A stretch of 35,319 nt of DNA from Candidatus Nitrosopumilus sp. (GTDB lineage Archaea; Thermoproteota; Nitrososphaeria; Nitrososphaerales; Nitrosopumilaceae). Position 1 is the stretch's first letter; each line of letters opens with the position of its first letter. The notes beneath the pieces are model-generated. The model was given only the letters and a program-made list of their open reading frames with translations. It was not told where the DNA came from and did not search any database. This document shows positions 21,629-27,150 of this stretch, one piece after another. The DNA lies in contig JACNFV010000094.1 of assembly GCA_014384445.1 (NCBI GenBank), positions 1 through 35,319 on the forward strand, read 5' to 3'. The position numbers and the translations under genes were made by a program.

Positions 21629-22345
<717 letters not shown>

Positions 22346-22431: not shown

Positions 22432-22923
22432 TTAGTAACTCAGCATCTCAAGCAGGTTATCAGACATATTATCCATTAAACTTGAATTGGTTTGTTTAAT
22501 CCAAGAAATAATCTTTGATTTATTTTTAATTGAATATGTTTTAAATGGTGCATGATAGTGAATTTGGACAATATTATATTTGATCAAAACGGATAATGTT
22601 CTTGAGGCAGTAGGACGGGATTTTGATATTTTTTCTCCAATTTCAGATTGTGCTAAATCTTTAGAATGTAACAATAGTGATACAGTTGAACTAATTGCAT
22701 TGTTTAGCATTAATTCGTAAAATTCAATTTTTTCTATTTCAAGTAGGGGGTTGTAAAATATTTTAAATTTACCTTTTTTATGGGTGATTTTTTTCTGATT
22801 TTCCAACTCATGGACGTATTTATTCACAGTTTCAGGCGAACATTCTACAATAGTTACTAATTTCATAAAAGTGATAGGTTCAGATAAAATAGATTTTAAA
22901 ATAGATTCTTTACATTTAATCAA
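22432..22923 (-). CDS. Transcriptional regulator with two winged-helix domains, 163 aa
   Basis: Two helix-turn-helix segments can be read. Residues about 17-50 (EPITFMKLVTIVECSPETVNKYVHELE) are followed by a basic wing (KKITHKKGKFKIFY). Residues about 90-125 (AQSEIGEKISKSRPTASRTLSVLIKYNIVQ) have the recognition helix SRPTASRTLSVL. No effector domain is seen, so control would be by a partner or by direct sensing. Start TTG at 22921-22923, since an in-frame stop lies just upstream. It lies directly upstream of bioD on the same strand (116 bp) and may be linked to biotin control, but could equally regulate the divergent membrane-protein gene. Not a BirA: no ligase domain. Confidence 0.78.
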   Translation of the reverse strand: MIKCKESILKSILSEPITFMKLVTIVECSPETVNKYVHELENQKKITHKKGKFKIFYNPLLEIEKIEFYELMLNNAISSTVSLLLHSKDLAQSEIGEKISKSRPTASRTLSVLIKYNIVQIHYHAPFKTYSIKNKSKIISWIKQTNSSLMDNMSDNLLEMLSY

Positions 22924-23670: not shown

Positions 23671-24987
23671 TTGAAAAGTTCAGTATGGCATCCAAATACC
23701 CAGATGAGCGAATGGGGTTCATTTGACACCATAACTAAAGGCAAGGGAGTATGGCTAATAGACTCCAAAGGTAACAAGATGATTGACGCAGTAGGCTCAA
23801 TGTGGTGTAATGTTTGGGGTCACTCCAATCCCCAACTAGTTAAAGCAATTACAACTCAAAGCAGGAAAATTCAACATTCGTCATTGTTTAATCTCACAAA
23901 CGAGCCCGTAGAAAAACTGGCAGGCAGTCTCATAAAAATATCTCCAGGAATGAACAAGGTGTTTTTTTCAGATAATGGCTCATCAGCAATGGAAATTGCA
24001 ATCAAAATGGCATTACAGTACTGGAAAAACATAGGAGAGAGAAACAGAACAAAAATTGCAACAGTGGAAAACGGATATCACGGAGATACGTTTGGAGCCA
24101 TGTCAGTAGGATACGTTCCAGAATTTTTTGCAAAATTTAAAGAACAACTGTTTCCAACAATTCAATTTCCAGTTCCAAATAGGTATAGAATACCAAAAGG
24201 ATTAACTTTTGAAGACTATCAAAATAATTGTTTAGAGAAAATCGAAAAAAGGTTTTCCAAAAAAGATGACATTGCAGCTTTCATAATGGAAAGCGGTGCG
24301 CAGATGGCAGGAGGAGTCATAATTTATCCCAAAGAATTCCAAAAGAAGATTAGCAAGTTATGTAAAAAACACGACATCCTGTTTGTGCTAGATGAGATAG
24401 CAACAGGTTTTGGAAGATTAGGATCAATGGTACAGTATCAAGAACAACAAAGCATACCGGACATAGTGGCATATGGAAAAATGCTAACGGGAGGGTATCT
24501 AACAATGGCTGCAACACTTGCAAATAAAAAAATTTATGATTCATTTTCAGGTGAATTTAATGATTGGAAGCATCTTTTTCACGGTCATACGTATACTGGA
24601 AACCCAATGGCAGCGGCAGTAGCTAATGAGAATATACACATGTATGAAAAATACAATTTGATTAAAAAAATTCAAAAAACATCCAAGGTGTTTGAAAAAT
24701 TTTATGATGAAATTTTAGACATAGATATTGTTGGGGATATCAGGCACAAGGGAATGCTCATGGGAATAGAATTGGTGTCAAACAAAGAAAAAAAGATACC
24801 AATCAAGACAAAAAAATCCATCAACAAAGTATTCTTTGAGGAAGGAAAAAAACAGGGCATATACCTTCGAACTCTGGGAAATATTGTAATGCTAGTTCCA
24901 CCGCTATCAATTCAAGATAATGAATTGGAATTACTTCTAAAGAGAACAATCAAGACTATTCAGGCATCAAAATCAAAGATCATTTGA
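23671..24987 (+). CDS. bioA: Adenosylmethionine-8-amino-7-oxononanoate aminotransferase, 438 aa
   Basis: Class III PLP aminotransferase making 7,8-diaminopelargonic acid from KAPA, with SAM (or lysine in some species) as amino donor. The N-terminal motif WHPNTQMSEW is the BioA signature. FSDNGSSAMEIAIKM (99-113) binds the PLP phosphate, Asp241 in LDEIATGFGR pairs with the pyridine nitrogen, and Lys270 in YGKMLTGG carries PLP. HGHTYTGNP is the usual C-terminal motif. The start is TTG 23671, confirmed by the conserved N-terminus and the TATA-like box. First gene of the plus-strand bio set; bioB follows after 71 bp that hold an operator-like inverted repeat. Confidence 0.93.
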   Translation: MKSSVWHPNTQMSEWGSFDTITKGKGVWLIDSKGNKMIDAVGSMWCNVWGHSNPQLVKAITTQSRKIQHSSLFNLTNEPVEKLAGSLIKISPGMNKVFFSDNGSSAMEIAIKMALQYWKNIGERNRTKIATVENGYHGDTFGAMSVGYVPEFFAKFKEQLFPTIQFPVPNRYRIPKGLTFEDYQNNCLEKIEKRFSKKDDIAAFIMESGAQMAGGVIIYPKEFQKKISKLCKKHDILFVLDEIATGFGRLGSMVQYQEQQSIPDIVAYGKMLTGGYLTMAATLANKKIYDSFSGEFNDWKHLFHGHTYTGNPMAAAVANENIHMYEKYNLIKKIQKTSKVFEKFYDEILDIDIVGDIRHKGMLMGIELVSNKEKKIPIKTKKSINKVFFEEGKKQGIYLRTLGNIVMLVPPLSIQDNELELLLKRTIKTIQASKSKII

Positions 24988-25019
24988 CTGTTAACCCCTA
25001 AAATTAAGAGGGTTAACAA
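24988..25019. promoter_or_regulatory. Biotin-operator-like inverted repeat upstream of bioB
   Basis: TGTTAACC (24989-24996), a 14-bp spacer, then GGTTAACA (25011-25018), extended by A at 25019 towards TTGTTAACC/GGTTAACAA symmetry. The BirA operator in bacteria is TTGTAAACC-N14-16-GGTTTACAA, with GTTAAC variants described in Gram-positive bacteria and some archaea (from memory). Here half-site, spacing and place agree. The right half ends 11 bp before the bioB TATA box, so a bound protein would hinder TFB/TBP loading. The regulator is not identified in the window. Confidence 0.72.
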
Positions 25020-25029
25020 TTACAATATT

Positions 25030-25038
25030 TTTATAAAT
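25030..25038 (+). promoter_or_regulatory. TATA box of bioB
   Basis: TTTATAAAT centred 25 bp before the bioB ATG at 25059; strong match to an archaeal TATA box with leaderless spacing. It gives bioB-bioF their own promoter independent of bioA. Confidence 0.65.
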
Positions 25039-25058
25039 GGAATAAAAGTTGTTTTAAC

Positions 25059-26036
25059 ATGAGTAGTATGGAATTCATCAAAGAGTGCCAAGAAAAGGTA
25101 TTTTCAGGTGAAAGAATTTCCGGAGAAGATGCAAGAAAACTATTCAATGTACCAGATGAAGATCTTAAAGAATTGGCTAGATGCGCCAACGAGATAACTA
25201 GAGATTATAATGGAAATAAGGTAGACGTAGAACAATTAAACAATATTAAAAAAAATGCATGTAGTGAAGATTGTACATTTTGCGGGCAATCAGCATTTTA
25301 TGATACAGGTATTGAAACATATCAATTGCCTACACCAGAAGAAGTTGTAATCAAAGCTAAAAAAGCAAAAGAAGATGGTGCAGACTCGTATTGCTTAGTT
25401 GCAGCATGGAAAGAACCATCACCAAAAGATTTCATAAAAGTTTGTAAAATAATTACAGAAATAAATGTAAAAGTTGGAATTAGTGTAGAATGCAGTTTAG
25501 GGTTTCTTACAAAACAACAAGCATCAAAATTAAAAGAACTAAAAGTAAAAAGATACAATCATAATTTAGAAACAGCAAAATCAAAATTTCCAGAAATATG
25601 TACAACACACACATATCAAGATAGACTAGATACACTAGAAATTGCAAGAGAGGCAGGATTGGAATTGTGTACAGGCGGAATTATTGGGTTGGGGGAAACA
25701 AGGGAACAAAGATTAGAATTAACCTTAGAACTAGCACGGATATATCCAGAGGAAATAACAATCAACATACTAGTTGCAGTTCCAGGAACACCATTGGAAT
25801 TGCAAGTGGATCTTGCAAATTCTGAAATTACCAGAATATTTTCAGTTATACGATTCCTCTTGCCAGAATCAGTGATCAAAATTTCTGGAGGAAGAGAAAC
25901 ACAATTAGAAGATTCAGGGGAAGAATTACTTCAAAGTGGAGCAAACGGAATAATTACTGAAGGATATCTAACTATGGGCGGAAATAAAGCCAAAAAAGAC
26001 CGTGAAATGATAGAAAAAATTGGCCTTGAAGTATAA
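25059..26036 (+). CDS. bioB: Biotin synthase, 325 aa
   Basis: Radical-SAM enzyme inserting sulfur into dethiobiotin. The SAM [4Fe-4S] motif is C68-x3-C72-x2-C75 in NACSEDCTFCGQS. The auxiliary [2Fe-2S] cluster ligands are the Cys in SYCLVAAW, VECSLGF and ELCTGG plus the Arg in KISGGRET. The glycine-rich TGGIIGLGETREQR and the substrate motif NILVAVPGTPLE are typical. Length is normal. ATG 25059 lies one TATA distance downstream of a strong box. Overlaps bioF by 17 bp, so the two are translated from one message. Confidence 0.94.
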   Translation: MSSMEFIKECQEKVFSGERISGEDARKLFNVPDEDLKELARCANEITRDYNGNKVDVEQLNNIKKNACSEDCTFCGQSAFYDTGIETYQLPTPEEVVIKAKKAKEDGADSYCLVAAWKEPSPKDFIKVCKIITEINVKVGISVECSLGFLTKQQASKLKELKVKRYNHNLETAKSKFPEICTTHTYQDRLDTLEIAREAGLELCTGGIIGLGETREQRLELTLELARIYPEEITINILVAVPGTPLELQVDLANSEITRIFSVIRFLLPESVIKISGGRETQLEDSGEELLQSGANGIITEGYLTMGGNKAKKDREMIEKIGLEV

Positions 26037-27150
26037 ACTCAACTTTGTTGATTTAGAATTAGCACGAATTAAAAAAAATAACCTGCATAGAAAATTACAA
26101 TATGGTAAAGCACAAGGTGCCCACATCACAATTAAAGGTAAAAAACTCATCAATTTGTCCTCAAATGATTATCTGGGAATTCCAATAACCAAAATTCAAA
26201 CAAATCAACTGCAGTCAAGTTCTAGACTTGTTTCAGGAAATGATGAATCATATAAAAAATTAGAAAGGGTTCTGGCAAAACACAAATCGCAGCAAAACAG
26301 TCTGATTTATCCCACAGGCTACATGGCAAATCTTGGATCAATTTCAGCAATTGCATCAAAAGGGGATTTAATTCTCAGCGATGAATTAAACCATGCAAGC
26401 ATCATAGAGTCATGTAAATTATCTGGTGCCAAAATATCCATTTACAAACATAATGACATGGATGATTTGGAAAAGAAAATAAAAAAACATGGAAAAAACA
26501 AGTTTGTAATTACAGAGGGCGTGTTTAGTATGGATGGCGACGTATCATCATTAAAAGAAATTACAGAAATTTCACAAAAATCAAACGCGATAACAATTGT
26601 AGATGACGCACACGGAGATTTTGTAATTGGAAAAGATGGAAAGGGAACTCCAGAATATTTCAATGTGGCAAAAAAAATTGATTTGTATATCAGCAGTTTA
26701 AGTAAAGGTCTAGGATCATTTGGAGGGTATGTCGCATCACAAAACAATGTAATTGATTTATGCATAAATAAATCAAAGTCATTTATTTACACATCAGCAC
26801 TGCCATCATTTTTAGTGCAACATTCAATTAAAAGAATAGAGTCAGACAGAGAGACTCAGAAGAAGAAATTAGAAAATAATGTAGAAAAATTAGCAAGAGG
26901 GTTAAGAACAATTGGGTATGAAATAAAATCAAATACACAGATCATACCAATAATTTTAGGAAGTGAAAAATTAGCGATGGATTTTGGTAAATTTTTATCT
27001 CTAAATGGAATATTCGCACAACCAATTAGATATCCCACAGTGCCAAAGAATCAAGCTAGACTAAGAATATCCGTGACTGCGTGGCTAACAAATTCAGACA
27101 TTGAAAAATCATTAAAAATATTTGAAAAAGCCTATAGAAAATTCTTGTAA
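26020..27150 (+). CDS. bioF: 8-amino-7-oxononanoate synthase, 376 aa
   Basis: PLP enzyme condensing a pimeloyl thioester with L-alanine to KAPA. Alpha-oxoamine synthase motifs: SSNDYLGI (47-54), SGNDESYKKLE, DELNHASIIES (121-131), DDAHGDFVIGKDG (195-207) and the PLP Lys229 in SSLSKGLGSFGGY. Start is TTG at 26020 or 26026, inside the end of bioB, indicating coupling. No gene for pimeloyl supply (bioC, bioH, bioW, bioI) is present in the window, so the acyl donor in this organism is not visible here. Confidence 0.93.
   Translation: MALKYKLNFVDLELARIKKNNLHRKLQYGKAQGAHITIKGKKLINLSSNDYLGIPITKIQTNQLQSSSRLVSGNDESYKKLERVLAKHKSQQNSLIYPTGYMANLGSISAIASKGDLILSDELNHASIIESCKLSGAKISIYKHNDMDDLEKKIKKHGKNKFVITEGVFSMDGDVSSLKEITEISQKSNAITIVDDAHGDFVIGKDGKGTPEYFNVAKKIDLYISSLSKGLGSFGGYVASQNNVIDLCINKSKSFIYTSALPSFLVQHSIKRIESDRETQKKKLENNVEKLARGLRTIGYEIKSNTQIIPIILGSEKLAMDFGKFLSLNGIFAQPIRYPTVPKNQARLRISVTAWLTNSDIEKSLKIFEKAYRKFL

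Follow-up and report, generated by a model that had tools for sequence, protein, structure and literature searches.

Two questions are raised by the inverted repeat that lies between bioA and bioB of this Nitrosopumilus genome: is it an operator for the biotin-protein ligase BirA, and does the same protein serve any other promoter? The window, i.e., the whole stretch of 35,319 nucleotides that was analyzed, is an entire contig of the draft genome, and the closest named relative in our search is Nitrosopumilus sp. BACL13 with a 99% identical bioB. The initial annotation had described the repeat as TGTTAACC-N14-GGTTAACA with perfect 8-bp arms, ending 11 bp upstream of TTTATAAAT, and had read it as a BirA operator controlling bioB-bioF and leaving out bioA and bioD; it had proposed to scan the genome with the site, to look for an N-terminal HTH domain on the ligase and to align the bioB upstream regions of relatives. 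The palindrome is present and the 11 nt to TTTATAAAT are borne out, but its perfect arms are 9 bp long, with TGTTAACCC at 24989-24997, GGGTTAACA at 25010-25018 and N12 between them. It occurs at one place in the window and at none in 100 dinucleotide shuffles, and the scan of the 1.32-Mb draft genome returned the bioB operator itself as the sole exact match.

Table 1. Positions of the promoter elements and genes around bioB in the window
Feature	Position	Strand	Basis
Predicted BirA-type operator TGTTAACCC-N12-GGGTTAACA (= TGTTAACC-N14-GGTTAACA)	24989..25018	.	sequence and conservation in relatives, diverged spacer
Putative BRE (25023-25029) and TATA box TTTATAAAT (25030-25038) of bioB	25023..25038	+	sequence, archaeal promoter rules, TATA offset kept in relatives
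bioB, biotin synthase	25059..26036	+	TIGR00433 384 bits (cutoff 225)
bioF-like 8-amino-7-oxononanoate synthase, overlaps the end of bioB, same operon	26020..27150	+	TIGR00858 348 bits, under curated cutoff 426
bioA, without own operator	23671..24987	+	TIGR00508 451 bits
bioD, without own operator	21629..22315	-	TIGR00347 154 bits
Two-winged-helix protein	22432..22923	-	weak HTH matches only

The operator starts 1 nt past the stop codon of bioA (24985-24987). As the first base of TTTATAAAT is 29 nt from the ATG of bioB, the bioB mRNA is probably leaderless. This bears on the idea that the inverted repeat acts as an RNA hairpin, either as terminator of bioA or as attenuator of bioB, which draws on the folding of the RNA strand with z = -2.87. 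The leaderless mRNA implied by the TATA position speaks against it, hybrid operators of the form GTAAACC..GGTTAAC would break a pair of the stem, and the same element is found before rpl3 (see below) and at loci where bioA was not found upstream. Despite the folding score, the hybrid operators and the element's presence without an upstream bioA led us to discard the hairpin, which we regard as extremely improbable.

The predicted control of the bio genes is split, as had been proposed. Before bioA and bioD there is no operator in this genome, and the relatives agree apart from genome G231 and those in which bioA and bioB are divergent and have one common operator; for this genus the split therefore holds. 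In G231 (genus g17, locus L203) bioA has a near-match of its own, GTTAACC-N14-GGTTAAT, and bioD is divergent beyond it.

The half-site of the bioB operator equals the known BirA half-site, both that of the published consensus TTGTAAACC-N14/15-GGTTTACAA (PMC545781) and that of Bacillus subtilis bioO, TTGTTAACC, the reverse complement of primer SKH035 (PMC4016012). A palindrome of the type TTGT(A/T)AACC-N14-16-GGTT(T/A)ACAA near the promoter of a biotin gene is thus found before bioB; of the outermost T/A pair of the BirA consensus, only the right-hand A is present, and C takes the place of the left-hand T. The alignment of the bioB upstream regions showed that the inverted repeat is conserved: most of the archaeal family has kept the operator upstream of bioB, with both half-sites retained and the 14-15 bp spacer varying freely (N14 or N15). 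At least 13 of the 14 positions of GTWAACC-N13-16-GGTTWAC were matched by 82 of 103 bioB promoters; shuffled versions of these sequences score as high in at most 1%. A match was not required for inclusion in this set; a minority of its rows was obtained via the pattern itself and is hence biased, and the rows obtained via a BioB protein search and from named loci give the same picture. The information content of the half-sites, taken from sites chosen by their pattern, was left out of the argument. The distance between operator and TATA box is usually 12-13 nt at bioB; in genus g14 operator and TATA box are directly adjacent. In G020, which has an intact HTH, the bioB operator was not found, and G128 and G146 have weak bioB sites only. 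In g11 (Nitrosarchaeum), the bioB promoters without a BirA site (L122-L125, L127 and L133) have in common an ACGCA-like element about 25-35 nt upstream of the TATA box.

Would a protein be available to bind this site? The genome encodes one biotin-protein ligase (G000:C157, locus L021:1222-2223), which matches TIGR00121 with 196.8 bits (cutoff 83.1), PF03099 (BPL_LplA_LipB) and PF02237 (BPL_C). The HTH domain sought at its N-terminus is there, as HTH_11 in residues 12-65 (PF08279, 50.0 bits, cutoff 25); the match of this part to TIGR00122 (50.3 bits) stays under the curated cutoff of 70. As the protein also aligns full-length with the BirA proteins of Staphylococcus aureus and Escherichia coli, its domains identify it as a group II ligase with an intact BirA-type HTH. 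A second copy of this HTH was found in none of the genomes tested, matches at E 0.04-0.1 being disregarded. At locus L274 (G222, genus g16) birA was read as two parts and has in-frame stop codons; the gene may carry a frameshift or be broken.

Across the family, the operator is conserved together with an HTH-bearing ligase and is absent where the HTH is absent, the exceptions being G020, G128/G146, g9, g11 and G107/G108. The HTH is missing or decayed in g7 (G017, G019), g12 (G041), g21 (G244, G245), g22 (G247, G249) and G005, with 2-35% identity to the HTH of our BirA as compared with 30-42% for the ligase part; for G245 this was judged by the HTH search alone. No operator was found at bioB in these 8 genomes, nor at rpl3 in the 6 of them where it was assessed. 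The form of the operator follows the HTH as well: with the recognition helix LSR(A/T)A (g10, g15, g18, g19) the bioB operator is mostly GTAAACC-N14-GGTTTAC, and with ISRVA it is GTTAACC..GGTTAAC or a hybrid. Since the hybrids occur in ISRVA lineages (g2, g4, g16, g17), the operator form is not fixed by the recognition residue alone. Counted on the L3 tree, loss of the HTH amounts to at least three changes by parsimony, the tree being weakly resolved, and supported branches leave one independent pair; a sign test on independent pairs is without power. The change of operator form (the helix contrast is about one clade) and the gain of the rpl3 site are each essentially one phylogenetic event. 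The repeated joint loss of HTH and operator makes a useful natural experiment on the specificity of BirA.

The initial annotation had also named the two-winged-helix protein encoded at 22432, or another regulator that had converged on the same site, as a candidate for binding at bioB. This protein has an HTH-like region and in our genome its gene stands beside bioD and bioA. However, in the bio gene neighbourhoods that were searched, a relative was present in 4 of the 80 named bioB loci, all from close Nitrosopumilus, while most of these loci carry the site, and the form of the site tracks the HTH of the ligase. The protein is locally too rare for a conserved partner, and a role for it or for another converged regulator is highly improbable. 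Taking together the conservation of the site, the HTH-bearing ligase and the co-variation of operator and HTH, we conclude that the bioB palindrome is very likely a BirA operator at which BirA is predicted to bind, and the reading of the initial annotation is strongly supported in this respect.

In a family-wide pattern search, a second site turned up in many genomes, usually at a distance of several kb from bioB. This second operator precedes rpl3, the first gene of the order L3-L4-L23-S19-L22-S3-...-L14-...-S4e-...-L6. In a search with the L3 protein, which is blind to the site, it was present in 20 of 21 genomes of g1, g5, g9 and g11; in g13 the rpl3 sites are known via pattern matches. All 30 named loci of this clade that include rpl3 have it, among them Nitrosopumilus salaria and Nitrosarchaeum sp. 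BD3, and such an upstream site was found in none of 28 rpl3 promoters from outside the clade. On the L3 tree one gain and one loss (G146) are required; by this count the rpl3 operator was gained once, in Nitrosopumilus, Nitrosarchaeum and three allied genera. Our genome has, outside the window on another contig, a site of the rpl3 type with one mismatch (G000:C118:44-71), which adjoins the same RNA-methyltransferase gene as in the relatives; the contig ends just before rpl3.

In the complete genomes of the Nitrosopumilus clade, rpl3 is the only other recurrent site beside bioB. When 28 genomes were scanned with at most one mismatch for N14 sites (N15 sites were covered in the family-wide pattern search), the recurrent matches beyond bioB and rpl3 were a sequence in g16 and one common to our genome and a near-twin. 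The g16 match, conserved in several genomes, falls within 16S rRNA and was dropped as a further BirA target. The other is TTTAACC-N14-GGTTAAC at G000:C47:558-585, with one mismatch, also present in the near-identical G094 (C1:61660). In two rpl3 promoters of g16 an N15 match of 13/14 positions spans the TATA box, and across the TATA box of the g16 promoters L205 and L207-L209 there is GTTAYC-N15-GGTTAAC, possibly a weak operator at a repressing position. Where rpl3 promoters lack the upstream palindrome (L169, L173, L178, L181, L207, L208 and L210-L212), a half-site follows closely on the TATA box: GGGGTTAAC(G/A) in ISRVA lineages and GGGGTTTAC(G/A) in the LSRAA lineages g10, g18 and g19, the half-site changing here like that of the bioB operator.

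Three groups, g9 (G021), g11 (Nitrosarchaeum) and G107/G108, have lost the bioB site and kept both the rpl3 site and the HTH, the HTH being more conserved than the ligase domain (70-82% vs 53-67% identity). It is difficult to see why an HTH should be kept after loss of the bioB site if bioB were the sole target of BirA, and the rpl3 site is the only recurrent candidate found. Alternatively, BirA could be confined to the bioB site, and some other ribosomal-protein gene regulator that recognises an equal half-site could bind the rpl3 palindrome. The two kinds of site do differ, rpl3 operators having always N14 and AT-richer spacers (86% vs 73% at bioB), and the cases just described show that they can be uncoupled by loss of the bioB site. 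Arms and spacing are, however, identical at both sites, the HTH of BirA has no second copy in the genomes, it is kept where the rpl3 site alone remains, and genomes without it have neither site. We therefore consider a separate rpl3 regulator unlikely and hold that BirA probably serves rpl3 also.

How BirA would act at the two promoters has to be judged from their layout. The rpl3 site lies 13-15 nt upstream of a TATA-like box (14-15 nt in 63 promoters), an offset nearly equal to that at bioB. In genera without the site rpl3 has a near-consensus TATA box (GTATATAATGGGG, CTTATAATGGGG), equally far from the ATG; in genera with the site the box is degenerate, mostly GGTTTAATAGAGGG or GGTTTATTAGACGG, except in g9 which keeps TTTATAAA. 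A core promoter weakened beside a gained upstream site would be the trace expected of an activator. For dual archaeal regulators such as TrmBL1, Tgr and VNG1451C, a site upstream of BRE/TATA means activation and a downstream one means repression (PMC4158304); the bioB operator, upstream of BRE/TATA, is at an atypical place for an archaeal repressor. This precedent and the nearly equal TATA offsets would fit a BirA which recruits TBP or TFB at both promoters, with bioB induced and not repressed. Such a scheme appears rather improbable to us, since biotin-induced biotin synthesis would be a positive feedback, the bioB site of g14 would block the BRE and known BirA proteins are repressors (PMC4016012, PMC6391492). 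Weighing the upstream-activator precedent against the strong bioB TATA box, the feedback logic and the abutting site of g14, we infer the sign at each promoter separately: the strong TATA box and the feedback logic make repression probable at bioB, biotin repression of bioB-bioF thus being plausible, and the weak TATA box tips the balance slightly toward activation at rpl3.

We propose that the ligase, once loaded with biotinyl-5'-AMP, would dimerize and that the dimer would sit on two GTTAACC half-sites which are two helical turns apart. Bound BirA would then control the bioB-bioF promoter, most likely by repression in biotin excess, and in Nitrosopumilus, Nitrosarchaeum and their three allied genera BirA would have gained a second target by an N14 operator just upstream of the rpl3 core promoter. 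As a whole, control of bioB-bioF by BirA via the palindrome, with the rpl3 operator as second target, seems quite likely from the sequence comparisons.

In several respects this resembles the group II BirA systems of B. subtilis and S. aureus (bioO, yuiG/bioY, yhfU/yhfST), which likewise have an HTH-bearing ligase and more than one target per genome (PMC4016012, PMC6391492), with a TTGTTAACC-type half-site at B. subtilis bioO (PMC4016012). Unlike there, the operator lies ahead of the core of an archaeal TATA/BRE promoter, and where those systems have transport or lipid genes, a ribosomal-protein operon takes their place as second target. The BirA signal of Rodionov et al. 2002 for bacteria and archaea, as cited in PMC545781, has the same palindrome and spacing before biotin genes; what differs here is that within a single archaeal family the operator form shifts along with the HTH, and that rpl3 joins the targets. 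With TrmBL1, Tgr, VNG1451C and the activator Ptr2 (PMC4158304) our sites at rpl3 and bioB share the place of the activating sites upstream of BRE/TATA, but those proteins, which serve sugar or other control, and their sites are unrelated, and BirA is an enzyme as well. We found no earlier description of a ribosomal-protein operon as BirA target in the open literature; the BirA operator at bioB is of a known kind, and to our knowledge the ribosomal-protein target is what is new.

Few autotrophs of the ocean are as abundant as the ammonia-oxidising archaea of the Nitrosopumilus group, whose CO2 fixation needs biotin. BirA loaded with biotinyl-AMP would signal that the acyl-CoA carboxylase which fixes CO2 has the biotin it requires. 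Quite tentatively, and with somewhat less than even confidence, we suggest that BirA could be a growth regulator in this clade, the holo-protein activating the weak-TATA rpl3 promoter and shutting bioB, such that ribosome synthesis would follow the capacity for carbon fixation. One biotin-sensing protein may in this way serve both vitamin synthesis and ribosome synthesis, and a BirA operator fixed before the main ribosomal-protein operon would link the cofactor of the carboxylase directly, and testably, to growth.
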